From contig NZ_JAAKZV010000012.1 of assembly GCF_011044975.1 (NCBI RefSeq), positions 1 to 64,000 on the forward strand: a stretch of 64,000 nucleotides of DNA, read 5' to 3'. Positions 13,623 to 48,078 of the stretch are shown one piece after another. The notes below the pieces were generated by a model. That model had not been told where the DNA came from, did not search any database, and saw nothing but the letters and a program-made list of their open reading frames with translations. The stretch is from Streptomyces coryli (lineage in GTDB: Bacteria; Actinomycetota; Actinomycetes; Streptomycetales; Streptomycetaceae). Position numbers and translations under genes: made by a program. Position 1 is the stretch's first letter. Each line of letters opens with the position of its first letter.

Positions 13623-15035
13623 TTACGACAACTGCTTCACGCGGCGGCGCTGCAGCACCACGCCGAGGACCAGGACCAGCGCCCCGACCACGACGGACAT
13701 GATCATCTGCTCGCGGCCGTCCTTGTCGTAGAACATGTAGCCGATCACGAAGAGGATCAGCCCGATCGTCGCGTACGTCAGATACGGGAAGAGCCACATC
13801 TTCACCGTGTGCCGCTCCGGCATCTCCCGCTCGATGATCTTCCGGTAGCGCAGCTGCGACAGGCAGATGACCAGCCAGACGAAGAGCGCGACCGCGCCGG
13901 AGGAGTTCAGCAGGAAGGTGAAGACCGTCTCCGGGGATGTGTAGTTGAAGATCACCGCGACGAAGCCGAAGGCCACCGACGCCCAGATCGCCGCGGCCGG
14001 GACGCCGCGCTTGTTCGTACGCCCGAAGGCCGCCGGCGCGTCGCCGCGCTTGCCGAGCGAGAAGGCCATCCGGGAGGCGGTGTACAGGCCCGAGTTGAGG
14101 CAGGACAGCACCGCCGTGACGATGATCACGTCCATGATGGTGCCGGCGTGCGGGATGCCGATCTGGTTCAGCGCCGCCACGTACGAGCCCTGGTCCTCGA
14201 GCTTCTTCGAGTCCCACGGGAGCAGGGTGACGACCAGGGCCATCGAGCCCAGGTAGAAGATGCCGATCCGCCAGATCACGGAGTTGGTGGCGCGGGAGAC
14301 CATCTTGGCCGGCTCCGCCGACTCGCCCGCGGCGAGGGTGACGATCTCGCTGCCCATGAAGGAGAAGACGACCAGCAGCATGCCGGAGAGGATCGCCCCT
14401 GGCCCGTTGGGCAGGAAGCCGTCATGTCCGGTCAGATTCCCGGTGCCGGGTGCGGCCATGTCCGTGCCGGGCAGCATGCCGAAGACGGCGAGGCCGGCGA
14501 TCACGATGAAGGCGCCGATCGCGACGACCTTGATGCCGGCGAACCAGAACTCGAATTCGCCGTACGAGCCCACCGACGCGAGGTTGGTGACGGTCAGGAT
14601 CACCATCACCAGCAGCGCCCACGACCACTGCGGGACCGCGGGTATCCACTCGGTGAGGATCTGCGCGGCCGCGGTCGCCTCGACGGCGAGCACCACGACC
14701 CAGAAGAACCAGTACAGCCAGCCGATGGTGAAGCCGGCCCAGCGGCCCAGGGCCCGGTCCGCGTACTCCGAGAAGGAGCCGGAGGCGGGGCTGGCCGCGG
14801 CCATCTCGCCGAGCATCCGCATGACCAGGACGACCAGCAGGCCGGCCAGGGCGTAGCTGATCAGGATGCCGGGGCCGGCCTTGGCGATGCCGGCGCTGGA
14901 GCCGACGAACAGGCCCGCGCCGATCACACCGCCGATGGCGATCATGGACAGGTGGCGGTTCTTGAGCCCTGCTTTGAGGCCGTCGGGGCCGGGATCGCCG
15001 GTCTTGGTGGCCTCTTCGCGTGTGTGCACGCTCAT
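13623..15035 (-). CDS. Amino-acid permease (APC superfamily, GabP/AnsP-like)
   Basis: The 470-residue protein has 12 hydrophobic segments. The family signatures are GLKNRHLSMIAIGGVIGAGLFVGSS at the start of helix 1, MRMLGEMAAASPASGSF around helix 2, and GSEIVTLAAGESAEP. These identify the amino-acid transporter group that includes GABA, asparagine and proline permeases. It should import an amino acid with H+ across the cytoplasmic membrane. A second permease of the same size and layout is at 20376-21788. It is monocistronic, with its own terminator. The exact substrate is not predictable. Confidence 0.9.
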   Translation of the reverse strand: MSVHTREEATKTGDPGPDGLKAGLKNRHLSMIAIGGVIGAGLFVGSSAGIAKAGPGILISYALAGLLVVLVMRMLGEMAAASPASGSFSEYADRALGRWAGFTIGWLYWFFWVVVLAVEATAAAQILTEWIPAVPQWSWALLVMVILTVTNLASVGSYGEFEFWFAGIKVVAIGAFIVIAGLAVFGMLPGTDMAAPGTGNLTGHDGFLPNGPGAILSGMLLVVFSFMGSEIVTLAAGESAEPAKMVSRATNSVIWRIGIFYLGSMALVVTLLPWDSKKLEDQGSYVAALNQIGIPHAGTIMDVIIVTAVLSCLNSGLYTASRMAFSLGKRGDAPAAFGRTNKRGVPAAAIWASVAFGFVAVIFNYTSPETVFTFLLNSSGAVALFVWLVICLSQLRYRKIIEREMPERHTVKMWLFPYLTYATIGLILFVIGYMFYDKDGREQMIMSVVVGALVLVLGVVLQRRRVKQLS

Positions 15036-15155
15036 ATGGGGGGATTTCCTTCGCGCCTCGGGTGACGAGCCGGACGATTAGATCTTGTGGGGGCGATCAA
15101 ACGGAAGGGCCGTCTCCGGATCGTTGTCTTCCGCCGGTCTGGCAAACTCATGCCC

Positions 15156-15641
15156 ATGCGCGTTTACCTCGGCAGCGATCATGCCGGATTCGAACTCAAG
15201 GCCCACCTCGTCGAGTGGCTGCAGGCCAACGGCCACGAGCCCGTGGACTGCGGTGCCCTGATCTACGACGCCGTCGACGACTACCCGCCGTTCTGCCTGC
15301 GCGCCGCCGAGCGCACCGTGGCGGACCCGGGCAGCCTCGGCATCGTGATCGGCGGCTCCGGCAATGGTGAGCAGATCGCCGCCAACAAGGTCAAGGGCGC
15401 CCGCGCGGCGCTGGCCTGGAACCTGGACACCGCGAAGCTGGCGCGCGAGCACAACAACGCCAACGTGATCAGCATCGGCGGCCGCCAGCACACCCTCGAG
15501 GAGGCGACGAGCTTTGTCGAGGCCTTCCTGTCCACCCCGTTCACGGGCGAGGAGCGCCACCAGCGCCGCATCGACATGCTCAGCGCGTACGAGGAGACGG
15601 GCAAGCTGCCGGACGTCCCCGCGCACCACCCGCAGAGCTGA
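15156..15641 (+). CDS. rpiB: Ribose-5-phosphate isomerase B
   Basis: The 161-residue enzyme interconverts ribose 5-phosphate and ribulose 5-phosphate in the pentose phosphate pathway. It starts MRVYLGSDHAGFELK, the RpiB/LacAB signature. The active-site loop GGSGNGEQIAANK carries Ser68 and Glu72. This corresponds to the Ser71/Glu75 arrangement of the Mycobacterium enzyme, in which Glu replaces the catalytic Cys of E. coli RpiB. HNNANV and the C-terminal phosphate-binding arginines are present. ATG 15156 or ATG 15150 could start; I prefer 15156. The stop overlaps the next start (TGATG), so it is coupled to the DNA glycosylase gene. Confidence 0.93.
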   Translation: MRVYLGSDHAGFELKAHLVEWLQANGHEPVDCGALIYDAVDDYPPFCLRAAERTVADPGSLGIVIGGSGNGEQIAANKVKGARAALAWNLDTAKLAREHNNANVISIGGRQHTLEEATSFVEAFLSTPFTGEERHQRRIDMLSAYEETGKLPDVPAHHPQS

Positions 15642-16447
15642 TGCCCGAGGGTCACACGATCCACCGGCTGGCGGCCGAGTACGGCATCCGGTTCGCCGGC
15701 CGGGTGCTGCGGGCCGCCAGCCCGCAGGGCAAGTTCGCCGATGGCGCGGCGCTGCTGGACGGCGCCCGCCTCACCGGCACCGACGCCCACGGCAAGCATC
15801 TCTTCCTGGACTTCGCCGCGGTGGGGCACGTCCACATCCACCTGGGGCTGTACGGGAAGGTCACCTTCGGGGACGGTCCCGCGCCGGCGCCCGTCGGGCA
15901 GGTGCGGCTGCGGCTCCTCACCGGGTCGGCCTACGCCGACCTCCGCGGGCCGACCGCCTGCGAGCTGATCACCGACGGCGAGAAGGACGCCCTGCACGCC
16001 CGGCTCGGCGACGATCCGCTGCGGGGCGGGGACGGCGGGCAGGCCCGGGAGCGGATCTCCCGGTCCCGTACGCCCATCGCCACCCTGCTCATGGACCAGA
16101 AGGTGATCTCCGGCGTCGGCAACGTCTACCGCGCCGAGGTGCTCTTCCGGCACCGCATCGACCCGTACCGGCCGGGCCGCGATCTGAGCGCGGACGAGTG
16201 GCAGGCGATCTGGTCCGACCTCGTCGCCCTCATGCGCGAGGGCGTGCGCAGCGGCCGGATCGACACCGTACGGCCCGAGCACACTCCTGAGGCGATGGGC
16301 CGCCCGCCGCGCGTGGACGATCACGGCGGCGAGGTGTACGTCTACCGCCGGGCGGCCATGCCCTGCCACCTCTGCGGCAGCGAGATCCGCACCGCGGAGC
16401 TCGCCGCCCGCAACCTCTTCTGGTGCCCCGGCTGTCAGAAGCCGTGA
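15641..16447 (+). CDS. Fpg/Nei-family DNA glycosylase (endonuclease VIII type)
   Basis: The 268-residue base-excision repair enzyme starts MPEGHTIHRLA. The N-terminal Pro2 is the catalytic nucleophile, and Glu3 is the conserved acid. The helix-two-turn-helix (MDQKVISGVGNVYRAEVLFRH) and the C-terminal zinc finger CHLCGSEI ... FWCPGCQ are complete, so it should be active. The PEGHT start, rather than PELPE of Fpg, points to the Nei branch that removes oxidised pyrimidines. It overlaps rpiB by one base and the converging Eis-type gene by 13 bases. Linkage of rpiB and nei is common in actinobacteria. Confidence 0.93.
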   Translation: MPEGHTIHRLAAEYGIRFAGRVLRAASPQGKFADGAALLDGARLTGTDAHGKHLFLDFAAVGHVHIHLGLYGKVTFGDGPAPAPVGQVRLRLLTGSAYADLRGPTACELITDGEKDALHARLGDDPLRGGDGGQARERISRSRTPIATLLMDQKVISGVGNVYRAEVLFRHRIDPYRPGRDLSADEWQAIWSDLVALMREGVRSGRIDTVRPEHTPEAMGRPPRVDDHGGEVYVYRRAAMPCHLCGSEIRTAELAARNLFWCPGCQKP

Positions 16448-17658
16448 GGGAACCAGGGCGCGACATGGCTCCCGAAGGCCGCTGACGCCTGGGCGAGGGC
16501 CCCTTCCCGCAGCGGCGTGACCCGCCCGGCGCCGGCCAGCGCGGTGAGCGAGACGCCGCCGAGGTACGCCGCGCCCAGCTCGCGCGCCGAGAGCGCCAGG
16601 TCCGCCGGGTCCTCCGTGCGCTTGCAGGAGGCTCCCGAGGAGTCGCCGAACAGCCGCCAACGGCCCTCGTTCCAGGGGCAGAAGAGGTCGGTCACGTCCA
16701 GGACGACGTCGACCGGGGTGAGATACGTACGCGCCTCGAGGGCGCCGGGGACATCGACGATGCGTACGTACATGCCGTCGCCGTAGGAGACGCCGCAGCG
16801 GCGGATGTCCGAGACGAGGTGCTGCCAGGGGGCGTCCACGGGGGTGGCGCGGGTGCGCACGACCGAGGTGAGGTCGATGCCGAAGAGGTAGCGCCACAGC
16901 GCCGCCTCGGCCGCCGGGGTCAGCGCCTGGACGGCGTGCGCGGTGACGGTGCCCTCGCCGCTGTGGTTCTGCGGCGTGACCGTGTAGCGGGCGTAGCCGG
17001 CCACCTCGCCGTCGTCCGTCGTCGCCAGCACGGCCTGGAGCTGCGACTGGCCGGGGGCCGGGGCGATGTCGCTGAGCTGCTTCTCGGCCCAGCCGGGCGG
17101 CCGGGCCAGGGTGCCCGGGCGGGAGTACAGCAGGCGCTCGTAGACGGTCTCGCAGGCGGCGAGCGACTCCTCGGGGTCCGCGAAGCGGATACGTACCGCG
17201 TCCGCTCCCTCGGGCATCCGCAGCGTGACCCGGGCGGTGTCGATCTCCGCGGAGAGGACCTGGGTGGCGGCGCCGTAGCCGAATCGCCCGTAGATGTCCG
17301 GCTCCGAGGCGAGCAGCGCGGCCAGCGGCTCGCCGCGTTGGCGCACGTCGTCCAACTGCCGCCGCATCATGGACGTCAGCAGCCCGCGCCTGCGGTGCGT
17401 GGGCAGCACCGTGACAAACGTCACGCCGGCGGTCGGCACGAGGGCGCCGCCGGGCACCACCATACGAAAGCTGTACGCCCCTGTGGTGCCCACCAGTTGA
17501 CTCTCGTCCCAGGCGGCGATGGACCGCTCCGGCTCGATCACCCGCAGCCAGCCGCCGCGCTTCTCCTCCGGCATCTGCACGCCGCCGAAGGCCGTCATCG
17601 CGGTGCCGAACCAGTCGGCCACGCCGTCCGCTCGCAGTTCCCGCAGCTCAATCGTCAT
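16435..17658 (-). CDS. Eis-type GNAT N-acetyltransferase with SCP2-like domain
   Basis: The 407-residue protein has the Eis layout: an N-terminal GNAT domain (acetyl-CoA loop VLPTHRRRGLLTSMM near residues 84-98), a second GNAT-like domain, and a C-terminal SCP2-like region. Eis of Mycobacterium tuberculosis acetylates several amines of aminoglycosides and needs the C-terminal carboxylate of its last Phe; this protein also ends in Phe (WFPHGF). It could acetylate aminoglycosides, polyamines or proteins. ATG 17658 is the first Met of the frame. It converges with and overlaps the nei gene, and its promoter is divergent from that of the PP2C phosphatase. Confidence 0.9.
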   Translation of the reverse strand: MTIELRELRADGVADWFGTAMTAFGGVQMPEEKRGGWLRVIEPERSIAAWDESQLVGTTGAYSFRMVVPGGALVPTAGVTFVTVLPTHRRRGLLTSMMRRQLDDVRQRGEPLAALLASEPDIYGRFGYGAATQVLSAEIDTARVTLRMPEGADAVRIRFADPEESLAACETVYERLLYSRPGTLARPPGWAEKQLSDIAPAPGQSQLQAVLATTDDGEVAGYARYTVTPQNHSGEGTVTAHAVQALTPAAEAALWRYLFGIDLTSVVRTRATPVDAPWQHLVSDIRRCGVSYGDGMYVRIVDVPGALEARTYLTPVDVVLDVTDLFCPWNEGRWRLFGDSSGASCKRTEDPADLALSARELGAAYLGGVSLTALAGAGRVTPLREGALAQASAAFGSHVAPWFPHGF

Positions 17659-35737: not shown

Positions 35738-36697
35738 ATGGATTCGGAGCGGACCGGAGTGGCGGTGACAGCCGTGCGCAGCACACATGCGGTGTTCCGC
35801 GCGCTCTCCTGCGACGCCGTACTGCTCGCGCACCTGCGCGCGCCGCTCGGGCGCGGGCGGGTGGAGAGCACCTATCACCGGGTGCTCAACCTCCTGCTGC
35901 CGGACGGCAGATTGATGGCACTGGCCGGCCGGGACGCGGGCGACGCCCCCTGGACGCTCGTCGTCGACACCCCGCACTGGTCGGCGTACGACATCGAGGC
36001 GGGGCAGCCGGTCGAGTTCACGCCGGGGCGTATCGCACTCCCCGGCATCGAGATCGATGTGGACCCCGCCGAGGAATGGCATACCATCCTTCCCGCCCTC
36101 GGCGATCTCACCCCGCAGCACCTGGGCGTCGCCGCCCGCTCGCTCTACGCGCTCACCCGCGCGCACGGCGAGTTCGGCGGCATGCTCGGCGCCTCCCGGA
36201 ACGCCTGGCCCATGGAGTCCGTCGTCTGCGCCGCCCTCGACGAGGGCCGGGCCGCGCTCACCCGCGCCGTCCTCGCCCGGGATCCGGCCGGCATCCGCGA
36301 CGGCGTCCTCGCCCTCCTCGGCCTCGGCCCCGGACTCACCCCGGCCGGCGACGACTTCCTCACCGGCATCGCCGTGCTGTCCGCGCTCGACGGCACCCGG
36401 CTCGGCCCGTTCGCGACCGTGCTCGGCGACGTACTCGACGAGCGGTCCGGCCGCACGACTCTGCTGAGCGCCACCACCCTCCGCGAAGCGCTCGCAGGCC
36501 GCGTCCGCGCCTCCCTCGCCGACGTGCTGTGCGCGATCCCCGCCACCCGTCGCCAGGACACCGCGCAGGCCGCCGACGCCCTCAAGAACCCGGTCCGCCG
36601 CGCGTTGGCCCACGGCCACACCTCCGGCACCGACACCCTGTCCGGTCTGGTGACCGGGCTGCACCTGGAGAAAGAACTGCGAGGTCAGCAGCTGTGA
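35738..36697 (+). CDS. DUF2877 protein (AllH/YlbF-like)
   Basis: The 319-residue protein is the first gene of the operon. It shows the DUF2877 signature LLGLGPGLTPAGDDFLTG near residues 190-210, then DERSGRTTLLSATTLREAL. In E. coli the homologue YlbF (AllH) is a subunit of oxamate carbamoyltransferase, together with FdrA and YlbE. That identification follows from family knowledge plus the gene order here. The start can be ATG 35738 or GTG 35735; both lie just after the operator. Its TGA overlaps the GTG of fdrA by four bases, so the subunits are translationally coupled. Confidence 0.88.
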   Translation: MDSERTGVAVTAVRSTHAVFRALSCDAVLLAHLRAPLGRGRVESTYHRVLNLLLPDGRLMALAGRDAGDAPWTLVVDTPHWSAYDIEAGQPVEFTPGRIALPGIEIDVDPAEEWHTILPALGDLTPQHLGVAARSLYALTRAHGEFGGMLGASRNAWPMESVVCAALDEGRAALTRAVLARDPAGIRDGVLALLGLGPGLTPAGDDFLTGIAVLSALDGTRLGPFATVLGDVLDERSGRTTLLSATTLREALAGRVRASLADVLCAIPATRRQDTAQAADALKNPVRRALAHGHTSGTDTLSGLVTGLHLEKELRGQQL

Positions 36698-38238
36698 GCA
36701 CTACAGCAGTCGTCAAAAAGAACACGTACTTCGACTCCGTGTCCCTGATGGCCATTTCGACGAAGGCCAACGGCCTCGACGGTGTGGCGCAGGCCTTCGT
36801 GGCCATGGGCACGGAGATGAACAAGGGGGTGCTGGGCAACCTCGGCCTGCTCACACCCGAACTGGAGGCGGCGGGCACCGGCGACCTCATGATCGTGGCG
36901 GAGACCACCGACGGCACCGACACCGACGCCGTGCTCGCCGCGATCGAGGAGCTGCTCGTCCGCAAGGCCCCGGCCGGCGGCGAGAGCGCCGTGACGTACC
37001 GGACCATCGCGGCCGCCGCGCAGGACCGCCCGGACGCCAACCTGGCCGTCATCGCGGTCAACGGCACGTTTGCCGGTCGCGAGGCCCGCAAGGCGCTCGA
37101 GAACGGCCTCAACGTGATGCTCTTCAGCGACAACGTGCCCGTCGGGGAAGAGGTCGCCCTCAAGCAACTCGCCCACGACAAGGGCCTGCTGATGATGGGC
37201 CCCGACTGCGGCACCGCGATCATCAACAACGTCGGCCTGTGCTTCGCCAACGCCGTCCGCCCTGGCTCCGTCGGCATCGTCGCCGCCTCCGGTACGGGCT
37301 CGCAGGAGGTCTCCGTACGGGTGCACGCCCTCGGCGCCGGCATCTCGCAGCTCATCGGCACCGGCGGCCGCGACCTCAGCGAGGAGGTCGGCGGCATCAT
37401 GATGATCGACGGCATCCGCGCGCTCGCCGCCGACCCGGCCACGTCCGTCATCGTCCTCATCTCCAAGCCGCCGGCCGCGGCCGTGGAGAAGAAGGTGCTC
37501 GCCGAGATAGCCACCGCCGGGAAGCCGGTTGTCGTGTGGTTCGTCGGCGGCTCCGAGGAGGCCGTCGTCGCGGCCGGCGGGCACTTCGCCACCGGCTCCG
37601 AGGACGCGGCCGTGCAGGCCGTACGGCTCGGGACGGAGCTGGAGGCCGTCGCCGGAGAGCTCGACACCGCCCGTATCGACGCGGTCGTCGCGAAGCTGGG
37701 CGCCGAACAGCGCTATGTCCGCGGCCTGTTCTGCGGCGGCACCCTCACCGACGAGGCGATGTACGCGCTGCTGGAGGACACTTCCGACGTCTGGTCCAAC
37801 ATCCAGAAGAACCCCGACCGCAAGCTCTCCGCCGACAGCCCCAGCACCGGCCACACCTTCCTGGACTTCGGCGACGACGAGTTCACCAACGGCCGTCCGC
37901 ACCCGATGATCGATCCGTCGCTGCGCCTGGCCCGCCTGGTGGAGGAGGCGCGCGATCCCGAGGTCGCCGTCATCGTCATGGACTTCATCCTCGGCTTCGG
38001 CGCCCACGAGGACCCGGTGGGCGTGACGCTCCCGGCCATCGCCGAGGCCCGGCAGATCGCCGCCGACGCGGGGCGTCACCTGGAGATCGTCGGCTACGTC
38101 CTCGGCACCGACCGCGACGCCCCGGTCCTCGCCGACCAGATCGCGGCCCTCGAGGCCGCCGGGGTCACCGTCACCGCCAGCAGCACCGAGACGGGCCAGT
38201 ACGCCCGCGCCATCGCCCGGAAGGTCACGAACGCATGA
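36694..38238 (+). CDS. fdrA: FdrA-family protein (AllF-like, acyl-CoA synthetase fold)
   Basis: The 514-residue protein resembles the succinyl-CoA synthetase alpha/beta layout. It has an N-terminal domain (about 1-110) and a Rossmann-like ligase region with MMGPDCGTAIINNVGL and GIVAASGTGSQEVS near 160-215. FdrA from E. coli, long annotated as an acyl-CoA synthetase, is now assigned as a subunit of oxamate carbamoyltransferase, which uses phosphate to split oxalurate into oxamate and carbamoyl phosphate. The open frame runs on upstream, but GTG 36694 overlaps the DUF2877 stop and is the natural start. It ends in an ATGA overlap with the DUF1116 gene. Confidence 0.9.
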   Translation: MSTTAVVKKNTYFDSVSLMAISTKANGLDGVAQAFVAMGTEMNKGVLGNLGLLTPELEAAGTGDLMIVAETTDGTDTDAVLAAIEELLVRKAPAGGESAVTYRTIAAAAQDRPDANLAVIAVNGTFAGREARKALENGLNVMLFSDNVPVGEEVALKQLAHDKGLLMMGPDCGTAIINNVGLCFANAVRPGSVGIVAASGTGSQEVSVRVHALGAGISQLIGTGGRDLSEEVGGIMMIDGIRALAADPATSVIVLISKPPAAAVEKKVLAEIATAGKPVVVWFVGGSEEAVVAAGGHFATGSEDAAVQAVRLGTELEAVAGELDTARIDAVVAKLGAEQRYVRGLFCGGTLTDEAMYALLEDTSDVWSNIQKNPDRKLSADSPSTGHTFLDFGDDEFTNGRPHPMIDPSLRLARLVEEARDPEVAVIVMDFILGFGAHEDPVGVTLPAIAEARQIAADAGRHLEIVGYVLGTDRDAPVLADQIAALEAAGVTVTASSTETGQYARAIARKVTNA

Positions 38239-39659
38239 GCACCACCAACAGCCTGTTTTCCAGCGACCTCAACGTCGTCAACGTCGGCCTCGCCATGTTC
38301 GAGGACGACATAGCCGCCCAGGGCGCCGAGGTCACCACCCTCGACTGGACCCCGCCGGCCGGCGGCAAGCCCGAGGTGCTCGCCGCCCTCGACGCGCTGG
38401 GGGACCTCGAGGTCGCCCAGAAAATCGAGGCCGCCAATGCGGAGGCCGTCGAGCGCATCGCCAACTCCCAGCCGATGCTGGTCGGTTTCGGCCGCGCCCT
38501 CGACGTCGTCCCCGGCATGACCCCGACGACGATCCTGCACTCGGGCCCGCCCATCACCTGGGACCGGATGAACGGCCCGATGCAGGGCGCGGTGACCGGC
38601 GCGCTGGTCTTCGAGGGCCTGGCGAAGGACCTCGACGAGGCCGCTGCCCTCGCCGCCTCCGGGGAGATCACCTTCTCCCCCTGCCACGAGCACGACGCCG
38701 TCGGCTCGATGGCGGGCGTGACGTCCGCGTCGATGTACATGCACATCGTCAGGAACGAGACGCACGGCAACTACGCGTACACGAACCTCTCCGAGCAGAT
38801 GGCGAAGATCCTCCGCATGGGCGCCAACGACGGCTCCGTCGTCGAGCGGCTGGTGTGGATGCGCGACGTCCTCGGCCCCATGCTCAAGGAGGCCATGGAG
38901 ATCGGCGGCCCGATCGACCTGCGGCTGATGCTGGCGCAGGCGCTGCACATGGGCGACGAGTGCCACAACCGCAACAACGCGGGCACGCTGCTGCTGCAGC
39001 AGGCGCTGGCCCCGTCGCTGCTCCAGACGTCCTTCACCACGGAGCAGAAGAAGCAGGTCTTCGACTTCATCGCGTCGTCCGACTACTTCTCCGGCCCGAC
39101 CTGGATGGCCACCGCGAAGGCCGCCCTGGACGCCGCGCACGGCATCGAGAACTCGACGGTCGTGACGACCATGGCCCGTAACGGCGTCGAATTCGGCATC
39201 CGCGTCTCCGGCCTCGCCGGCAACCAGTGGTTCACCGGCCCGGCGGGGACAGTCGTCGGCCCGATGTTCGCCGGCTACAAGCCGGAGGACTCCGGCCGCG
39301 ACATCGGCGACAGCGCGATCACCGAGACGTACGGCTTCGGCGGCTTCACGATGTCGGCCGCGCCCGCCATCGTCGCGCTCGTCGGCGGCACGGTGCAGGA
39401 GGCGATGGCGTACACGCGGGAGATGGGCGAGATCACGACGTCGCAGAACCCCAACGTCACCATCCCGGCCCTCGACTTCCAGGGCATCCCGACCGGCATC
39501 GACGTACGGAAGGTGCTGGACACCGGCATCCTCCCGATCATCAACACCGCCATCGCTCACAAGGACGCGGGCATCGGCATGATCGGCGCCGGCGTCGTCA
39601 ACCCGCCCGTCGAGGCCTTCGAGAAGGCCGCCGCGGCGCTGGCCGAGGTCATCGGCTGA
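38235..39659 (+). CDS. DUF1116 protein (AllG/YlbE-like)
   Basis: The 474-residue protein begins MSTTNSLFSSDLNVVNVGLAMF. It has DUF1116 family features: VVPGMTPTTILHSGPPITWDRM, FSPCHEHDAVGSMAGV, and GDECHNRNNAGTLLL. In E. coli the homologue YlbE (AllG) is the third subunit of oxamate carbamoyltransferase. All three subunits therefore lie in one tightly overlapping operon here, which supports a heteromeric enzyme. It starts four bases inside fdrA (ATGA) and its stop overlaps the next ATG (TGATG), so the permease is coupled as well. Confidence 0.9.
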   Translation: MSTTNSLFSSDLNVVNVGLAMFEDDIAAQGAEVTTLDWTPPAGGKPEVLAALDALGDLEVAQKIEAANAEAVERIANSQPMLVGFGRALDVVPGMTPTTILHSGPPITWDRMNGPMQGAVTGALVFEGLAKDLDEAAALAASGEITFSPCHEHDAVGSMAGVTSASMYMHIVRNETHGNYAYTNLSEQMAKILRMGANDGSVVERLVWMRDVLGPMLKEAMEIGGPIDLRLMLAQALHMGDECHNRNNAGTLLLQQALAPSLLQTSFTTEQKKQVFDFIASSDYFSGPTWMATAKAALDAAHGIENSTVVTTMARNGVEFGIRVSGLAGNQWFTGPAGTVVGPMFAGYKPEDSGRDIGDSAITETYGFGGFTMSAAPAIVALVGGTVQEAMAYTREMGEITTSQNPNVTIPALDFQGIPTGIDVRKVLDTGILPIINTAIAHKDAGIGMIGAGVVNPPVEAFEKAAAALAEVIG

Positions 39660-40957
39660 TGGCCGGCCTGGACACGGCCGCGGACAGCGCGGCGGCCGAC
39701 TCCGAGTACGAGCACAGCCCCGTTCCCGTAGAACGCCGCAAGTCGCTGCTGACCGTGTCGGCGGTGTGGTTCGGCTTCCCGATGATCCTCACCAACGCCG
39801 TCCCCGGCGGCGTCGTCGTCGCCATGCTGGGCTTCTGGCGCGGCCTCGGCGCCATCATGGTCGCGAACCTGGTGATGTTCGCGTACGTCGGTCTGCTCAG
39901 CTACCGCTCGGGCGCGACCGGCGAGAACTTCGCGCTCCAGGCGACGAAGACGTTCGGCCGCATCGGGTACGTGGTCGCGTCCGGCTTCCTGGCGACGATC
40001 GTGGTGGGCTGGTTCGCCTTCAATACGGGCGCCACCGGGGCCACGCTGCACCAGGCCTTCGGCTGGCAGGAGCAGCTGGTGTCGGTGCTCGCGGGCGTGC
40101 TCTTCATCGGCATTACGTATCTGGGCATCCGCGCCCTGTCCTGGCTGGGCGCGGTGGCGGCCCCGCTCTTCATCCTCGTCGGCGTCATCGCCATCGTCCT
40201 GGTGGCGCGGGAGCACAGCCTCGGCGCGATCTTCGACTACCAGGGCGTGGCGGGCGACAGCGCGATCACCTTCGGCGCGGCCGTCTCGATGATCATGGCG
40301 ACCTTCGCCGACTCGGGGACGATGACGGCGGACTTCACGCGCTGGTCCCGTAATGGCAAGGAAGCGGTGCTCGCGACCGCGACCGCCTTCCCGGTGGCGT
40401 CGCTGATCGCGCAGATCACCGGCGGCATCGTGGTGGCGGCCGGCGCGATCGCCTCGGCGGCGACGGTGGGCGGCAACTTCCTGCCGATCCTGACGGGCGG
40501 CCACGGCGTGGTGCTGGACGCCCTGGCGGCGGTCTTCGTCTTCGTCAATCTCGGCTCGGTGTGCAGCCATTGCCTCTACAACGGCGCGCTGAGCTGGTCG
40601 CATCTGACGCGGACGAAGATGCGGCTGATGACGCTGATCCTGGGCGTCATCGGCACGATCGCCGCGCTGGCGGGGGTCTGGAACCACTTCCTCGACTGGC
40701 TGGTCATCCTGTCCGTCTTCGTCCCGCCGCTGGGCGGCGTGCTGATCGCCGACCAGGTGCTGCTGCGCCGCCGGGCGGAGGGCCGTGCCGATACGGCGGT
40801 CCGCCCGACGGCCTTCGCGGCCTGGGCGGCGGGGGCGCTGGTGGGCGGGCTGGTGCACTGGTACGCGCCGCAGTTCTCGGACGCGGTGAGCGGCCTGGTG
40901 GTGGCGCTGGTGGTGTACGTGGCCGCGGAGCGGCTCGGCAGCCGCACGACCTCGTAG
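39659..40957 (+). CDS. NCS1-type nucleobase permease (CodB-like)
   Basis: The 432-residue protein has 12 hydrophobic segments after an acidic 28-residue N-terminal tail. Characteristic NCS1 features are SLLTVSAVWFGFPMI, the GWFAFNTGATGATL motif of helix 3, and ATFADSGTMTADFTRW. The family imports cytosine, purines, allantoin or hydantoins with Na+ or H+. As the fourth gene of the oxamate carbamoyltransferase operon, coupled by one base, it probably imports the nitrogen-rich substrate fed to the pathway. Allantoin, hydantoin and pyrimidines are candidates. No allantoinase or allantoicase gene is in the window. Confidence 0.9.
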   Translation: MAGLDTAADSAAADSEYEHSPVPVERRKSLLTVSAVWFGFPMILTNAVPGGVVVAMLGFWRGLGAIMVANLVMFAYVGLLSYRSGATGENFALQATKTFGRIGYVVASGFLATIVVGWFAFNTGATGATLHQAFGWQEQLVSVLAGVLFIGITYLGIRALSWLGAVAAPLFILVGVIAIVLVAREHSLGAIFDYQGVAGDSAITFGAAVSMIMATFADSGTMTADFTRWSRNGKEAVLATATAFPVASLIAQITGGIVVAAGAIASAATVGGNFLPILTGGHGVVLDALAAVFVFVNLGSVCSHCLYNGALSWSHLTRTKMRLMTLILGVIGTIAALAGVWNHFLDWLVILSVFVPPLGGVLIADQVLLRRRAEGRADTAVRPTAFAAWAAGALVGGLVHWYAPQFSDAVSGLVVALVVYVAAERLGSRTTS

Positions 40958-42196
40958 ATGGGAACGAGGGGGGCTTTCTCATCGCTGCGGGCCAGCCCGG
41001 GATTCCGCTGGCTCTGGTGCTCCAACCTGTTCTTCTTCTGCGGGACATGGACCCAGACCCTGATCCTGGGCTGGCTGGTCTTCGAGTCGACGGGGTCGGA
41101 GTTCCTGCTGGCGGTGTTCACGTCCGTACGGCTGGCACCGATGCTGCTCGGCCCGGTCGCGGGGGTGCTGTCGGACCGCTACGACCGGGTGCGGCTGCTG
41201 GTGGTGGCGTGCGTGTGGGCGCTGGTGGCGGTGTCGGTGGTGGCGGCGGCGGAATCGCTGTTCACGGTCCCGTACTGGCTGCTCCTGGCGGGCGGTCTGG
41301 TGCTGGGCCTGTCGCAGTCACCGTCGCAGCCGGCGCGGATGGCGCTGGTGATGGACCTGGTGGGGAGGGAGAACCTGTCCAACGCCAACGCCCTGAACGC
41401 GATGGCGATGAACATGACCCAGGTGGTCGGTCCCGCCATCGGCGGCGCGATGATCAGCGCGGTGGGCGCGGAGGCATCGCTGTGGATCTCGACGGCTTGG
41501 TACGGGGTGTCGCTGGCGGCGCTGTGGCCGTTGCGGGGGCGGGCTTCGGTCCGTAAGACGGCGGCATCGGACGCCGACCGCGAGTCGGTGACGCGGATGC
41601 TCACCGCGGGCATCCGCACGGTCCTCACCAACCGCCTGTCGGCAGCGGTCCTGGGCGTCACCCTCTCGACCAACGTCCTTCTGTGGCCGATCTTCCAGGG
41701 CTTCATGCCGGCTTTCGCGGCTGAGCTGTCGCTGGATGCCACGGGGCTGAGCTGGCTGCTGGCGTGCAGTGGGGTGGGCGGTCTGGTGGGCTCGCTGATC
41801 ATCGCGCGGCTGGGCGACTTCCGCTTCAAGGGCGGTGTCTTTGTCATCGGCACGGCGACGTGGGGTGGGCTGTGGACTCTGTTCTCCCTTTCTGAGGTAC
41901 TGCCGCTGGCCTTCACGCTGATGGCCTGCATCGGCGTACTGAGCGCTTTCTTCGGCGTCCTGCAGACGACACTGCTCCTGATGACGACGGAGCCGGAGGT
42001 CCAGGGCCGCGCTCTGGGCATTCAGGAACTGGCCATCGGCGCGATCCCGGTGGCGTCGCTGGGCTTGGGGGCGGTGGCGGAGGAATACGGCGTCCGGGCC
42101 ACGACCGTGGTCAGCAGCCTGCTGCTGGTCATCATCCTGACGGCGGTGGCAATACGGGTGCCGCGGCTGCTGGCTTTCAGTGGAAAAGGGGATTGA
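40958..42196 (+). CDS. MFS transporter (EntS-like)
   Basis: The 412-residue protein has about 12 membrane helices and matches the MFS group that includes the enterobactin exporter EntS. Motifs are GTWTQTLILGWLVFESTGS, GVLSDRYDRVRLL after helix 2, and SNANALNAMAMNMTQVVGPAIGG. The ATG follows the permease TAG directly with no gap, so it belongs to the same transcript. It could export a product or analogue of the pathway, or it may simply be co-transcribed. The gene is followed by the long inverted repeat that ends this transcription unit. Confidence 0.85.
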   Translation: MGTRGAFSSLRASPGFRWLWCSNLFFFCGTWTQTLILGWLVFESTGSEFLLAVFTSVRLAPMLLGPVAGVLSDRYDRVRLLVVACVWALVAVSVVAAAESLFTVPYWLLLAGGLVLGLSQSPSQPARMALVMDLVGRENLSNANALNAMAMNMTQVVGPAIGGAMISAVGAEASLWISTAWYGVSLAALWPLRGRASVRKTAASDADRESVTRMLTAGIRTVLTNRLSAAVLGVTLSTNVLLWPIFQGFMPAFAAELSLDATGLSWLLACSGVGGLVGSLIIARLGDFRFKGGVFVIGTATWGGLWTLFSLSEVLPLAFTLMACIGVLSAFFGVLQTTLLLMTTEPEVQGRALGIQELAIGAIPVASLGLGAVAEEYGVRATTVVSSLLLVIILTAVAIRVPRLLAFSGKGD

Positions 42197-42493: not shown

Positions 42494-43534
42494 TCAGTGC
42501 GCGTCGTGCCCCGAAGCCTTCGCATCCTCGGCGCCCTCGGCGCCCTTCGCATCCTTGCCCGCAGCCTTAGGCACCGCCATAGGCCGATGCTTCCCCGCCA
42601 CCGTCCCATCCGGGTTCTGCACGATCAGCATCCCCGCCATCCCCTGATCCGAGTGCGACTGCACATGGCAGTGGTACATCCAATGCCCGGACCCCACCAG
42701 CTCCCCGGCCACCACCTGAAAGCCGAAGGAATCCCCCGGTCCGCAGATCTTGTTGTCCGTCAGCGGCGTCGGGTCATCCGCACTCGTGAGCATCCCCGTC
42801 CGGTTGTCAGCCCACCGATGTCCGTGCAGGTGGAAGGTGTGGTAGAGCTCCCCGTGCGTGATCATCAGGATCTCGACCCGATCACCCAGCTTCGCCGTGA
42901 AGTTGGGGACCTCGTCACCCGCCACACCAGTCTTGTTGTTGATCGTCATGTCGTTGAAGACGATCGTGAAGGTCTTGTCCGGGAGGGGGTCGCCCTTCCG
43001 GCGGACGATCAAGCCGCCGTACAGGCCCCTCCGTACGCCGCCCGTCCCGTGCTCGGTCCCCACCATGTGGTCGTGGTAGTGCCAGTAGCCGGCGCTGCCT
43101 GCCACGATCGTGCCGTCGGAGCGTTCCCGTTGGGCGTGCGATGACCAGGTGTACGTGCGTTTGCCGCCCGGGGGGACGACGCTGTCGGTCATCGCCGTGC
43201 CATCGTTGTCAATCGTGTAGTCGACGCCGTGCGGGTGGATGCTGACGGGGACATCCAGGGTGTTGTTCAGCTCGATGACCAGGGTGTCGCCCTCGTCGAT
43301 GACCAGCAGGGGGCCGGGGATCGTGGCCTTTCCCGGCTCCAGGCCGTAGCCGAGCTGGTTGTTGGGGAGGGCCTCGGCGTACATGGTCACGTTCTTGACG
43401 ACGCCCTTCGGCTCCACCTCGCCGTCCGGCCGGGTCGCGGCGCTGGTGGACAGCGCGGCCGCGGGGGCCACGACCGCTGCCGCGGCGCCGGTGGTGAAGG
43501 TTCTCCTCGAGAAGCGACGCTCCGGCATCCGCAT
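42494..43534 (-). CDS. Two-domain laccase (small laccase, multicopper oxidase)
   Basis: The 346-residue protein has a Tat signal ([24 protein letters not shown]). Two cupredoxin domains carry all four copper-binding motifs: [17 protein letters not shown], and [12 protein letters not shown] with the T1 Cys and a Met axial ligand. The length and layout match the trimeric small laccases (SLAC) of Streptomyces, which oxidise phenols and other donors and reduce O2 to water outside the cell. The C terminus has a charged Lys/Ala/His tail (about 325-346). ATG 43534 has GGAGGG 10 bases upstream. It is divergent from the sugar dehydrogenase operon. Confidence 0.95.
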
Positions 43535-43644
43535 GCGCTGCCTGCCCTCCGCTATGAGCCAGCTCTACCGGCCACGGATGGTATGAGCACGACAAGAGTT
43601 TGAACAGTCGCAGGACAAAGTTCGTTGAAACTCGGTAGTAGGTA

Positions 43645-43673
43645 TTGGCGAGTTGGCCAAAGCGGTCTAGCTT
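43645..43673 (+). promoter_or_regulatory. Promoter of the ThuA-dehydrogenase operon
   Basis: TTGGCG (43645-43650) and TAGCTT (43668-43673) are separated by 17 bases, a good sigma-70-type arrangement. A leader of about 35 bases with GGGGAGG leads to ATG 43715. Confidence 0.6.
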
Positions 43674-43714
43674 CCCCCCGACAACGCTGTCACGTCAGGG
43701 GAGGCGGGTGCGCG

Positions 43715-46153
43715 ATGAGGCACAGAGGCCGGAAGGTGCGCGGCTGGGCCGGTGGTGCCATCGCCACTGGGCTTGTCATGAGCCTGATATTCGGCGGTGG
43801 CGGTCCGGCCGCCGCCCGTACCGACGCACCTCCCGCCGACGGGCCGCCCGGCTCGAATATCGCGGGCAAGACCGCGGTGCTGGTCTTCCACGGCAAGGAC
43901 GCGGCCGACCCGGTGACCGCCGCCGGCGTGAAGGCCATCACCGAGCTGGGGCAACAGGCGCCCGCGGAGCAGCAGTTCGACGTCACGGCCACCAAGGACC
44001 CCGCCGTCTTCAACGACGCCGACCTGGCCTCGTACAACGCCGTCGTCTTCCTCTCCTCCGGGGGCGATCTGCTCAGCGACGCGCAGGAAGCCTCCTTCAC
44101 CAAGTACGTCCAGTCGGGCGGCGGCTTCCTCGGCATCCATGAGGCGGCCAAGTCCGAGCCCGCCTCCGAGTGGTTCACCAAGCTCATCGGCACCCGCCCG
44201 GCCGCCACCAGCCCCGCGGACCCGCAGACCGCCACCGTCGAGGCCGGCGACCGGCAGCACCCGAGCACGAAGGGGCTGCCGGTGGAGTGGGCCCGCAAGG
44301 ACACCTGGTTCAACTGGGCGCCCAACCCCTCCGGCAGCGTGCACACCGTCGCCCGCGTCCGCGAGCGCTCGTACGCACCCGGCGAGGGCGCCAACGGCTG
44401 GGACCACCCGATCTCCTGGTGCCGCGACTACGACGGCGGCCGGTCCTTCTACACGGGCATGGGCGGCACCGCCTCGAGCTTTACGGAGAACAACTTCCGC
44501 AAGCACCTCTTCGGCGGGCTGCTCTGGACCACCCGCCTCTCCCGCGCCGACTGCAAGGCCACCATCGACGCCAACTACAAGGCCGAGCGGCTGACCAAGC
44601 CCAACCAGCCCGAGCGGCAGGACCAGATCGGCGAGCCGCACGGCATCGCCGTCGCCGATGACGGCCGGGTCTTCTACATCGGGCGCGGCGGGCGCTGGCC
44701 GAGCGCCCCCGTGGTCACCGACTGGAACAACCCCGAGATGGGCAAGGGGCCCGGCACCATCCACGTGTGGGACCCCAAGACCAAGCAGGTCACCCAGGTC
44801 GGCTCGCTCGACGTCTTCGGCAACAAGGGCGGCGGCGATGAGCTGGTGAAGGTCGAGGAGGGCATGCTCGGCATCGCCCTCGACCCCGACTTCCTCACCA
44901 ACGGCTACGTCTACCTGCACTACACGCCGCACTCCGGGCTCGATCGCGCCAAGCACCTGGCCGAGCGCCGCGTCTCCCGCTTCACGGTCGATCTCACCAC
45001 CAACAAGCTCGACCCGGCCTCCGAGAAGACCCTGCTCAAGTGGCCGGTCCAGGCGCACAGCTGCTGCCACGCCGGCGGCGGCATGGCCTGGGACTCCAAG
45101 GGCAATCTCTACATCGCCACCGGCGACAACAACTCCTCCCGCTTCTCGGACGGCTACTCCGGCAATAACCCGGAGCCCAACTTCCAGGGCGTCTCCTTCG
45201 CCGACGCCCGTCGGACCGCGGGCAACACCAACAACCTCAACGGCAAGATCCTGCGCATCCACCCGGAGCCGGACGGCACGTACACCACCCCCGCCGGCAA
45301 TCTCTTCACCGGCGAGGAAGGCGGCGGGGGCAAGGCCCGTAAAGAGATCTACGTGATGGGCGTCCGCAACCCCGCCCGCATCTGGGTCGATCCCAAGACC
45401 GACTACCTCTACGCCGGGTGGGTCGGCCCGGATGCCGGCGAGCCGTCGGCGACCTGGGGCCCGGCGAAGTACGACACCTTCGCCGTGATCACCAGCGCGG
45501 GCAACCAGGGCTGGCCGTACTGCATGGGCAACCGGCAGCCGTACCGGGACCGCAATCTGCCGGACCCGACGCAGCCGCTCGGCTGGTACGACTGCCAGCA
45601 CCTGGAGAACAACTCGCCCAACAACGACGGCCTGACCGACCTCCCGCCGGCCCGTAACAACACCATCTGGTACTCGCCCCAGGGCGGCGGTCCCGACTAT
45701 CCGCGGGACGCGAACGGCATCCCGAGCTACAAGCTCGGTGACGAGAAGTTCCTGCTGCCGTGGCTGAAGGGCGGCGGGCAGGCGACCATGAACGGGCCCG
45801 TCTATCGCTACGACGCCGAGAAGGCGGGGGCCGGGGCCTGGCCGGCGTACTGGTCCGGCAAGTGGTTCGTCGGCGACTTCTACGACCAGGACCAGCCGCG
45901 GCACGCCGTGCTGATGGATCCGGGAAACATGGGCGGCACGCCCGTCCACGCCGAGTCGCTGGCGAAGATGATCCCCAAGGGCAATGACGGCATCAAGAAC
46001 CTCATGGACTGGAAGTTCGGCCCCGACGGGACGCTCTACGTCCTCGACTACGGCCGCGGCTTCTTCAACTACGACGACAAGTCGGCGCTGTGGCAGGTCA
46101 CGTACACCGGTGGCGGGCCGACGCCGAGTGCCGAGCAGGTGGTGGGGAAGTGA
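43715..46153 (+). CDS. Secreted ThuA-domain / PQQ-type sugar dehydrogenase fusion
   Basis: The 812-residue protein has a signal peptide (basic MRHRGRKVRGW, hydrophobic core, cleavage near AAARTDA). A ThuA-like domain spans about 50-270 (VLVFHGKDAADPVT, NAVVFLSSGGDLLS, GGGFLGIHEAA). A six-bladed glucose/sorbosone dehydrogenase domain spans about 310-790 (HGIAVADDGRVFYIGRGG, GMLGIALDPDF, HSCCHAGGGMAWD, GNLYIATGDNN, VMGVRNPARI). The second domain normally binds PQQ and oxidises sugars. The first is related to trehalose-utilisation protein ThuA, linked to 3-keto sugars. The stop is 17 bases before the next gene, so they form an operon. Whether this organism makes PQQ is not shown here. Confidence 0.88.
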   Translation: MRHRGRKVRGWAGGAIATGLVMSLIFGGGGPAAARTDAPPADGPPGSNIAGKTAVLVFHGKDAADPVTAAGVKAITELGQQAPAEQQFDVTATKDPAVFNDADLASYNAVVFLSSGGDLLSDAQEASFTKYVQSGGGFLGIHEAAKSEPASEWFTKLIGTRPAATSPADPQTATVEAGDRQHPSTKGLPVEWARKDTWFNWAPNPSGSVHTVARVRERSYAPGEGANGWDHPISWCRDYDGGRSFYTGMGGTASSFTENNFRKHLFGGLLWTTRLSRADCKATIDANYKAERLTKPNQPERQDQIGEPHGIAVADDGRVFYIGRGGRWPSAPVVTDWNNPEMGKGPGTIHVWDPKTKQVTQVGSLDVFGNKGGGDELVKVEEGMLGIALDPDFLTNGYVYLHYTPHSGLDRAKHLAERRVSRFTVDLTTNKLDPASEKTLLKWPVQAHSCCHAGGGMAWDSKGNLYIATGDNNSSRFSDGYSGNNPEPNFQGVSFADARRTAGNTNNLNGKILRIHPEPDGTYTTPAGNLFTGEEGGGGKARKEIYVMGVRNPARIWVDPKTDYLYAGWVGPDAGEPSATWGPAKYDTFAVITSAGNQGWPYCMGNRQPYRDRNLPDPTQPLGWYDCQHLENNSPNNDGLTDLPPARNNTIWYSPQGGGPDYPRDANGIPSYKLGDEKFLLPWLKGGGQATMNGPVYRYDAEKAGAGAWPAYWSGKWFVGDFYDQDQPRHAVLMDPGNMGGTPVHAESLAKMIPKGNDGIKNLMDWKFGPDGTLYVLDYGRGFFNYDDKSALWQVTYTGGGPTPSAEQVVGK

Positions 46154-46170
46154 GGGAGAGACACCGGATC

Positions 46171-48078
46171 ATGTCGATACGACGCGCGCTGATCGCGCTG
46201 CTCGTCGGGTGCCTGGCGCTGCTGTCGCCCGGGCTCACCGCGCAGGCCGCGGACCCGGACAAGGAGCGGTCCGAGGCCGCCGCGCAGACGCTGACCTGGA
46301 CCGCGGACAACAGCATGACCGCGTACAAGACCCAGCCGTCGACGGCGGTCGCGGGCGCGACCACCATCGTCTTCGAGAACAGCGCCGCCACCGGCAACAC
46401 CACCGGCATGACGCACACCCTCACCTTCGACACGTCCACGCCCGGCTACAACCACGACGTGTCGGTGAACCTCACCGCCAGCCCGAACGACGCGCAGGGC
46501 GGCAAATGGCAGGTGGACGTCAATCTCACCCCGGGCAAGTACCGGTTCTTCTGCGCCATCCCGGGCCATGAGCAGATGCAGGGCGAGCTGATCGTCACCG
46601 AGGGCGGGCCCGACACCACGCCGCCGGAGACGAAGGCCGAGGTGACCGGCACCAAGGACACGGCCGGTAACTATGTCGGCAGCGCCACCGTGAACCTCGC
46701 GGCCACGGACGCGGGCTCGGGCGTGGACCGTATCGACTACGCGGTGGACGGCGGGGAGTTCTCCGCCTACGAGGCGCCGGTCGTCGTGAATACCGTCGGG
46801 GATCACACGGTCAAATACCGCGCCACCGACAAGGCCGGGAATGTGGAGACCGAGAAATCGGTGGCCTTCAAGGTCGTCGAGGCGCCGGGCGGTGATGCGA
46901 CGCCGCCCGAAGTGGCCGCGGAGGTCACCGGGGAGAAGAACTCCGCCGGTTACTTCAAGGACATGGCGACGGTGACGCTGACGGCCACGGACAACGAGGG
47001 CGGGTCCGGGGTCGGCAAGATCGAGTACTCGATCGGCGGCGGCGCGTTCGCCACCTATACGGCGCCGTTCATGGTGCACGCCCTCGGCACTCACACGGTG
47101 ACGTACAAGGCGACCGACAAGGCGGGCAACGCCTCCGAGCCGAAGACGGTCACCTTCACCATCGCCCCGGGCGACCCGGACCCCGATCCCAACTGCGCCG
47201 AGAACGACGACCGTCCGATCGTCTTCGTCGGCGCCGAGACCACCGGCGTCCCGAACCGGGTCACCGGCACCGGCTGCAAGATCAATGAGGTGATCCAGGA
47301 CGAGAAGGCCTGGCCGGGCCACGCCGCCTTCGTCGACCATGTCAAGACGCTCACCGCCGAGTGGCAGGGCGACGGCGTCCTGGACAAGGCCGAGAAGGCC
47401 GAGATCGACGACGCGGCGCAGCGCAGCGACGTCGGCGTCGACGGCAAGGGCTACAAGACCCTCTTCGACGGCACCCAAGACACCTTCGGCAAGTGGGAGC
47501 AGGTCGGCGGCGGGTCGTTCGGCCTCAATGGCGATGGCTCGATGACGTCTGGGACTACGAAGGCCGGGCTCGGGATGCTCTGGTATCCGCAGCAGAAATA
47601 CGGCGACTTCTCGCTGAAGCTGCAGTTCCGCGACGACGCACCGTCGACGAGCCGCGCCAACAGCGGCGTCTTCGTCCGCTTCCCGCAGCCGCACGACTTC
47701 CCCGGGGAGTCGCGGCCCGAGTGGGTGGCCATCAAGTACGGCCATGAGGTGCAGATCTTCGACGGTGAGTACGGGGACCAGTACAAGACCGGGTCCGTCT
47801 ACGGCTTCGACGTGAACAACCACGGCGAGGGCATGGCGACGGACAAGGGCGTGTGGAACGACTACGAGATCAAGGTGGTCGGGCAGCACTACTCGGTCTA
47901 CCGGAACGGCATCCTGATCAACGAGTTCCACAACACCCCCGGTCAGCTCTTCTCCCCGCCCCGGGCGGACGACCCGGGGACGGACGGGAGGCAGCGGGTC
48001 CAGGGCTATGTCGGGCTCCAGGTGCACGGGACGACGGATGTCGTCTCGTACCGGGATGTGCGGATCAAGGCGCTGTAA
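46171..48078 (+). CDS. Secreted cupredoxin / DUF1080 (3-keto-glycoside hydrolase-like) protein
   Basis: The 635-residue protein has a signal peptide (about 1-26, ending AQAA). A blue-copper domain (about 35-145) has likely ligands His82, Cys128, His133 and Met136 in CAIPGHEQM. Two Ig-like repeats follow (about 150-240 and 245-335), each with DxxPPE ... GSGV ... YRATDKAGN-type ends. A linker leads to a DUF1080 beta-sandwich (about 430-635: LFDGTQDTFGKW, RANSGVFVRF, YEIKVVGQHYSVYRNGILINEF). DUF1080 proteins include 3-keto-disaccharide hydrolases. Joining an electron-carrier domain to such a domain next to a sugar dehydrogenase is unusual. GGGAG precedes ATG 46171. Confidence 0.85.
   Translation: MSIRRALIALLVGCLALLSPGLTAQAADPDKERSEAAAQTLTWTADNSMTAYKTQPSTAVAGATTIVFENSAATGNTTGMTHTLTFDTSTPGYNHDVSVNLTASPNDAQGGKWQVDVNLTPGKYRFFCAIPGHEQMQGELIVTEGGPDTTPPETKAEVTGTKDTAGNYVGSATVNLAATDAGSGVDRIDYAVDGGEFSAYEAPVVVNTVGDHTVKYRATDKAGNVETEKSVAFKVVEAPGGDATPPEVAAEVTGEKNSAGYFKDMATVTLTATDNEGGSGVGKIEYSIGGGAFATYTAPFMVHALGTHTVTYKATDKAGNASEPKTVTFTIAPGDPDPDPNCAENDDRPIVFVGAETTGVPNRVTGTGCKINEVIQDEKAWPGHAAFVDHVKTLTAEWQGDGVLDKAEKAEIDDAAQRSDVGVDGKGYKTLFDGTQDTFGKWEQVGGGSFGLNGDGSMTSGTTKAGLGMLWYPQQKYGDFSLKLQFRDDAPSTSRANSGVFVRFPQPHDFPGESRPEWVAIKYGHEVQIFDGEYGDQYKTGSVYGFDVNNHGEGMATDKGVWNDYEIKVVGQHYSVYRNGILINEFHNTPGQLFSPPRADDPGTDGRQRVQGYVGLQVHGTTDVVSYRDVRIKAL

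Follow-up and report, generated by a model that had tools for sequence, protein, structure and literature searches.

The window analysed here, a stretch of 64,000 nucleotides of Streptomyces coryli (contig NZ_JAAKZV010000012.1), contains three neighbouring genes encoding a two-domain laccase, a ThuA-GSDH dehydrogenase and a cupredoxin-DUF1080 protein. The two-domain (SLAC-type) laccase gene (42494–43534, − strand, 346 aa) is divergent from two genes that abut each other on the + strand, namely that of the secreted dehydrogenase (43715–46153, 812 aa from the ATG at 43715) and that of a secreted protein in which a cupredoxin domain is followed by OmpL47-type repeats, an unnamed module and a DUF1080 domain (46171–48078, 635 aa from the ATG at 46171). 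The N termini of all three proteins appear signal-like when inspected by eye. An earlier note on this DNA, made from the letters alone, had described these three open reading frames (ORFs) and their domains, and Pfam and PDB matches bear them out; the starts of the two + strand ORFs had to be corrected, however, and the note had mentioned neither the OmpL47 repeats nor the module of about 85 aa. The dehydrogenase ORF was listed from 43625, but its start is likely the ATG at 43715, because a promoter-like site (43645–43673) falls inside the listed ORF. The cupredoxin gene likely starts either at the ATG at 46171 or at a GTG at 46150, which overlaps the stop of the upstream dehydrogenase gene.

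The laccase comprises the Pfam domains Cu-oxidase_3 and Cu-oxidase_2, carries a twin-arginine (Tat)-like signal at its N terminus (SRRTF, recognised by eye), and finds its closest PDB matches among chains named two-domain laccase (E about 1e-133). Its ligand motifs are located at residues 100, 152, 232, 288 and 296; within these motifs every aligned sequence has the same His and Cys residues (75–76 of 75–76), and the axial Met is kept in 74 of 75. With two cupredoxin domains and ligand motifs for the type 1 (T1), type 2 (T2) and type 3 (T3) coppers, the protein is predicted to be a SLAC-type two-domain laccase. It shares family, ligands and size with SLAC (SCO6712) of S. coelicolor and with other two-domain laccases. 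Since the laccase of a related locus from S. coelicoflavus (L059) is near-identical to SLAC (PDB 3cg8, E 3e-220), SLAC itself most likely has the same gene neighbours; by gene order its partners would be SCO6711 and SCO6710, the latter probably being the cupredoxin-DUF1080 gene.

The dehydrogenase consists of an N-terminal ThuA domain (43877–44530; PF06283, E 2.1e-61, 208.2 bits against a cut-off of 33.4) and a GSDH region (44657–46120; PF07995, E 2.6e-24). Within the latter, H452, D471, R551 and N552 (counted from 43715) align with His144, Asp163, Arg228 and Asn229 of a soluble glucose dehydrogenase (sGDH) chain, among which are the catalytic His and, with Arg and Asn, residues of the pyrroloquinoline quinone (PQQ) site. 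All four residues are kept in each of the 40 dehydrogenases of the system that were aligned, which speaks for a functional dehydrogenase. In a midpoint-rooted tree of 63 GSDH domains, these 40 members form one clade (support 1.0) apart from 23 outsiders; inside it, the subclade of the window type is well supported (0.96) and that of the DUF1080-fused type weakly (0.46). The GSDH relatives with known chemistry, sGDH and aldose sugar dehydrogenase, oxidise C1 to a lactone. The conversion of sugar to 3-keto sugar therefore does not follow from the dehydrogenase family, and such a step is speculative.

The third protein begins with a cupredoxin domain (46306–46596) of the plastocyanin/azurin type (PF00127, E 2.7e-5, 24.9 bits against a cut-off of 21.2). 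The ligands given for it in the earlier note, His82, Cys128, His133 and Met136 (C-x4-H-x2-M), are right when counted from the ATG at 46171 and are invariant across 34 aligned proteins. At related loci the first His and the Cys are kept in 80 of 80 sequences and the second His and the Met in 79 of 79, which supports a working blue-copper site. Two OmpL47-type Ig-like repeats (46672–47160, the outer end being approximate; NF047446, two stretches, E 6e-52) form a putative stalk, and across the cupredoxin proteins such repeats number from 2 to about 8 by eye. They are followed by the module of about 85 aa, here called NHG (47194–47448; E 1e-27 with our own hidden Markov model (HMM)), a stretch in which no Pfam family has its best match at E 0.01, and by the DUF1080/3-keto-disaccharide hydrolase domain (47449–48069; PF06439, E 1.1e-33, 117.3 bits against a cut-off of 26.8).

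Relatives of the dehydrogenase numbered 460 at one genome per species, of which the best 80, all from records titled Streptomyces, were kept; counts over 80 loci thus describe the closest relatives. The laccase gene is divergent and adjoining at 79 of these loci, and at the remaining one the contig starts 78 bases upstream. The cupredoxin gene comes next to the dehydrogenase gene at all 80, with DUF1080 then present at 79 (one contig ends). The outer neighbours of the trio in the window, a major facilitator superfamily (MFS) gene and a reductase gene, recur at 0 of the 80 loci in flanks of up to 10 kb. Among 121 Streptomycetaceae genomes, searched with cut-offs of E 1e-200 for the dehydrogenase, 1e-50 for the laccase and 1e-60 for the cupredoxin-DUF1080 protein, all three genes occur in the same 22 and lie together by coordinates in all 22, and the other 99 gave no match for any of the three at those cut-offs (Fisher p 1e-24, ignoring shared descent). 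In a sample of 296 genomes from the phylum, the six with a laccase above 420 bits are the six with a dehydrogenase above 1280 bits.

The class sample of 384 genomes was queried by laccase alone; dehydrogenases of this clade without a laccase were sought in the phylum (296) and family (121) samples. A laccase was found in 49 genomes, 19 of them among the 22 Streptomycetaceae genomes with the cluster. In the other 30, we read 34 laccase regions, covering every match listed for those genomes: the dehydrogenase is near the laccase in 29 of 34 and the cupredoxin in 31, one of the three regions lacking the latter (L229) ending at a contig edge. All 31 cupredoxins have the complete type 1 copper set (H, C-x4-H-x1 to 3-M). 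The laccase-dehydrogenase cluster is thereby present in 29 of the 30 further genomes and in 48 of 49 overall, genome G423 being without it in the stretches read. Gene direction varies: of the 29 dehydrogenase regions, 17 have all visible genes in one orientation and 12 have a divergent laccase gene. The earlier note had named conserved co-occurrence elsewhere as a check on its reading, and the related loci, the family sample (22/121) and the class regions (29/34) all pass it; the three genes are confirmed to behave as one conserved unit that recurs across the class sample. Chance neighbourhood was rejected in view of this co-inheritance in family, phylum and class samples, and a chimeric window was rejected because the same architecture is found at 80 loci.

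The position of DUF1080 differs between the two types of cluster. It ends the dehydrogenase chain in 23 of the 29 class-sample regions (in L229, cut by the contig end, just its start is seen), the cupredoxin then being a separate protein, and it ends the cupredoxin chain, as in the window, in the remaining 6, which may all be Streptomyces. A DUF1080-dehydrogenase fusion also occurs within the Streptomycetaceae sample (L180). The earlier note's fusion of DUF1080 to the cupredoxin thus holds for the window but is too narrow as a general picture: DUF1080 belongs to the system, but not always on the cupredoxin. The NHG module precedes DUF1080 in 125 ORFs of both types, a count in which overlapping stretches are included repeatedly, and it also closes the cupredoxin chain of L180, as it does 6 of the 9 complete fused-type or laccase-pair cupredoxins printed. 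A simple account would be that DUF1080 moved by recombination between two NHG copies in adjacent genes. The module is found beyond the system as well, in other GSDH or DUF1080 proteins (L114, L120, L125, L126, L158 and L160). At one locus (L241, 9966–12241) the DUF1080 part of the cupredoxin gene is split across two frames, by either an assembly error or a frameshift.

Relatives outside the cluster were examined from both the dehydrogenase and the laccase side. Pfam scans covered 17 non-cluster GSDH proteins, drawn from the GSDH and ThuA ORFs of 20 stretches (leaving aside one ORF each of L115, the first, and L118, the second, the ORFs of L128, L129 and L131, and the ThuA ORF of L133). Two of these proteins combine GSDH with a cupredoxin-like domain, which exceeds the PF00127 cut-off in L117 and narrowly misses it in L116, and two have DUF1080 in the same chain as GSDH (L114 and L130). 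Among the 11 phylum-sample genomes with weaker laccases, loci were read in 8 (G123, G167 and G199 being left out), and in 4 of them the gene next to the laccase encodes a secreted cupredoxin protein; three of these proteins carry a NosD-like right-handed helix (L201, L202 and L204) and one has two cupredoxin-like stretches. In L203 and L206 no cupredoxin was found by our own HMM, no Pfam scan being made there, and in L200 and L205 the sequence stops no more than 350 bases from the laccase. As a separate observation, the two GSDH proteins with a cupredoxin-like domain are giant chains (L116, 2815–11520, 2902 aa; L117, 9223–16368, 2382 aa) that join ThuA, GSDH, CBM6, PKD, DUF1349-like and cupredoxin-like domains with cell-wall-binding CWB2 repeats.

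The gene and domain content, the co-inheritance, the conserved metal and active-site residues and the DUF1080 swap are direct observations. In the actinobacterial genomes sampled, genes for this type of small laccase are nearly always accompanied by those for a secreted sugar-type dehydrogenase and a blue-copper protein, which suggests that the laccase is the O2-reducing end of an extracellular chain, and we propose that the three genes would encode one extracellular oxidase system. In it, the ThuA-GSDH protein would oxidise a carbohydrate or a related alcohol; its electrons would pass singly to the type 1 copper of the stalk-mounted cupredoxin, and from there to the small laccase, which would accept them at its T1 copper and reduce O2 to water. 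DUF1080, and perhaps ThuA, would bind or cleave carbohydrate, a function that could be carried by either redox partner. Substrate, cofactor, hydrolysis and the route of the electrons are what we infer from the sequences; the two transfers, from dehydrogenase to cupredoxin and from cupredoxin to laccase, are postulated because domain fusions, gene adjacency and kept ligands point to them together. SLAC is described as having a positive patch above a T1 copper that lies 6–8 Å beneath the surface, and electron transfer between SLAC and an electrode works (PMC9692349); 71 of 77 aligned laccases retain Arg170 of this patch. The earlier note's reading, in which sugar is oxidised to a keto sugar and DUF1080 cleaves the keto glycoside, is partly supported: the three genes form a unit, while electron transfer, PQQ dependence and keto-sugar chemistry remain proposals. 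We estimate the probability of a dehydrogenase-cupredoxin-laccase-O2 chain outside the cell at about 0.55. Its extension to a general extracellular carbohydrate oxidase of the Actinomycetes, in which a dehydrogenase, a blue-copper protein on a variable stalk and a small laccase would carry electrons from sugar to O2 outside a Gram-positive cell and keto-glycosides would be cleaved as part of the system, with SLAC as the terminal oxidase and phenol oxidation as a side activity, is put forward tentatively, as a possibility with the odds somewhat against it.

Several observations weigh against the proposed chain. The laccase-dehydrogenase link is not strict, since some laccases occur without the dehydrogenase: two of the five class-sample regions lacking it have the laccase alone (L208 and L212), the other three have tandem two-domain laccase pairs with a divergent cupredoxin gene (L209, L219 and L225, as far as the stretches extend), and the weaker laccases of the 11 phylum-sample genomes (up to 328 bits) are likewise found without this dehydrogenase. 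The two cupredoxin-like domains fused to GSDH outside the system have the His, Cys and His but miss the axial Met, and the genomes of L116 and L117 gave no laccase match at E 1e-30. Of the 77 laccases just 3 have the Lys204 of the SLAC patch, while 63 have Lys or Arg at position 203. The acidity of the cupredoxin is weak evidence because the other two secreted proteins of the window are acidic as well, and charge complementarity is a weak argument. The trimer of a type B two-domain Cellvibrio oxidase has its T1 sites turned towards a central tunnel (PMC13151041), an arrangement that could hinder a bulky partner. Laccase and dehydrogenase divergence correlate closely (r 0.93 over 72 loci), as expected from shared descent alone; the ligand and divergence comparisons used clean single-frame matches (76 laccases, 76 dehydrogenases and 72 correlation loci, of 80). 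The GSDH residues fit a working dehydrogenase and are not specific to the chain, because the outsiders nearly always keep them (H, D and R in 23 of 23, N in 21 of 23). Finally, PqqE above its cut-off was found in 6 cluster genomes out of 22, against 16 out of the 99 genomes lacking the cluster (p = 0.23), so PQQ biosynthesis is not enriched as a linked trait among the 121 Streptomycetaceae genomes. In most cluster genomes PQQ would therefore be scavenged or another cofactor used, and PQQ is a putative cofactor of the dehydrogenase.

The alternative that fares best, though we consider it unlikely, is that the laccase oxidises phenols, as is usually assumed, and the dehydrogenase re-reduces the resulting quinones or phenoxy radicals with electrons from sugar, with no direct path between the proteins and the cupredoxin as an auxiliary. 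Cellobiose dehydrogenase plays such a re-reducing role beside fungal laccases. This scheme accounts equally well for the laccase-dehydrogenase linkage, and it agrees with the oxidation of phenols by laccases of this type (PMC3918160) and with the study of a laccase-negative S. ipomoeae mutant for lignin degradation (PMC5675413). It leaves unexplained, however, why a cupredoxin is so frequent in the class-sample regions, why the system is tied to DUF1080, and why cupredoxins also stand beside laccases without a dehydrogenase, as in the tandem-pair regions and in half of the eight distant loci.

A role in copper handling appears improbable; in this reading the laccase would act as a cuprous oxidase and be loaded by the cupredoxin, serving as copper store or donor, while the complex would be anchored through the carbohydrate domains. 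Copper sites are present in both laccase and cupredoxin, and SCO6710, the probable cupredoxin-DUF1080 gene of S. coelicolor, has been described as a glycosyl hydrolase gene putatively repressed by the copper regulator CsoR (PMC6414726). Against this, the CsoR operator core, searched with the consensus given in PMC3902906 at up to 3 mismatches and fixed spacing, was matched in the trio of none of the 80 loci and not in the window; the SCO6710 transcript was reduced, to 0.5-fold, when cultures came from copper-amended spores (PMC6414726); and copper loading has no need of a dehydrogenase. The least probable of the alternatives is glycan remodelling during development, for instance in aerial growth or at the cell surface, in which the redox parts would produce a crosslink or an activated sugar and not supply carbon metabolism, for although the OmpL47 repeats are stalk-like and no transporter is a fixed neighbour (the MFS gene of the window recurring at none of the 80 related loci), no tie to developmental genes was seen, the identified part-shared flanks being LacI-type regulator, glyoxalase-like and LigD-type genes.

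The proposed electron chain resembles several known systems in part. Methylamine dehydrogenase with amicyanin and alcohol dehydrogenase with azurin likewise pair a quinoprotein-type dehydrogenase with a type 1 copper acceptor, as would be the case here; those chains end at cytochromes and membrane oxidases in the Gram-negative periplasm, whereas here a secreted laccase is the proposed end and a ThuA-GSDH protein the dehydrogenase. The PVC-type heme-binding CxxCH proteins (TIGR02604) also join a dehydrogenase to its own electron acceptor, through fusion to cytochrome c. The GSDH region matches TIGR02604 weakly (E 3e-4, far below the cut-off), but neither the three proteins of the window nor 29 dehydrogenases belonging to the system contain a CxxCH motif, and the cupredoxin would take the place of the cytochrome. 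Relatives of DUF1080 have been linked to 3-keto sugars, namely BT2157 and, in Caulobacter, CCNA_01705 with LacABC (PMC9007349). A secreted DUF1080 protein is encoded near a sugar dehydrogenase there as well, the dehydrogenase being LacABC in that pathway and GSDH here. A Pfam scan of the trio and ten window neighbours, in which no LacABC model was searched, found no C3 (LacABC-type) dehydrogenase, and membership of the whole set in the 3-keto pathway was rejected for lack of such an enzyme among the genes scanned.

SLAC has been studied as a stand-alone phenol oxidase, whereas here its relatives come with dehydrogenase and cupredoxin partners. Among the open-licence papers listed in searches for this combination and for the S. 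coelicolor gene numbers, no title or abstract opening mentions such partners of small laccases or describes the laccase-dehydrogenase-cupredoxin combination, and a 2026 paper calls the physiological roles of two-domain oxidases and small laccases poorly understood (PMC13151041). Work on small laccases concerns lignin and electrodes, and the conserved partner set provides a testable partner. If the proposed chain is true, dye and phenol assays have missed the natural electron donor of the laccase, and sugar-driven catalysts of O2 reduction could be drawn from natural three-protein sets.

The divergent spacer holds a conserved element, CAGGACAAAGTTCG (43611–43624), whose core, ACAAAGTT, is present in 79 of 80 sequences by k-mer counts (79 loci plus the window, L069 being without it). 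Downstream lies a promoter-like site for the dehydrogenase gene, TTGGCG-17-TAGCTT (43645–43673, + strand), presumably of the sigma-70 type; the pattern TTGGCG-N-TAGNNT recurs in 67 of the 80 sequences, with a spacing of 17 in all 67, and the distance from the element core to the promoter is fixed in the 27 rows printed. A search of 8 of the 22 cluster genomes with a 16-base pattern at up to 2 mismatches disclosed no wider regulon: of 12 matches, 7 fall in the spacer of the cluster itself and 5 at other sites, compared with 3 matches for a reversed-pattern control, and G130 gave none, its own spacer included. A palindrome resembling TACCC/GGGTA between the dehydrogenase and cupredoxin genes was found in 0 of 81 sequences.

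The surroundings of the trio vary. Genes common to the flanks of part of the related loci, of LacI-type regulator, glyoxalase-like and LigD-type, are absent among the window neighbours scanned, so no fourth conserved gene emerged. In L059, genes for a LigD-type primase-polymerase and an ATP-dependent ligase (14551–16712) lie just past the trio and have relatives in 57–62 of the 79 other loci. In the window, the MFS gene (40958–42196) adjoins the laccase gene, and beyond it a row of genes (36646–40957) encodes a CoA-ligase-like protein, an oxamate carbamoyltransferase subunit AllG (E 2.5e-89) and a permease of the cytosine/purine/allantoin type, perhaps a purine or allantoin breakdown set.

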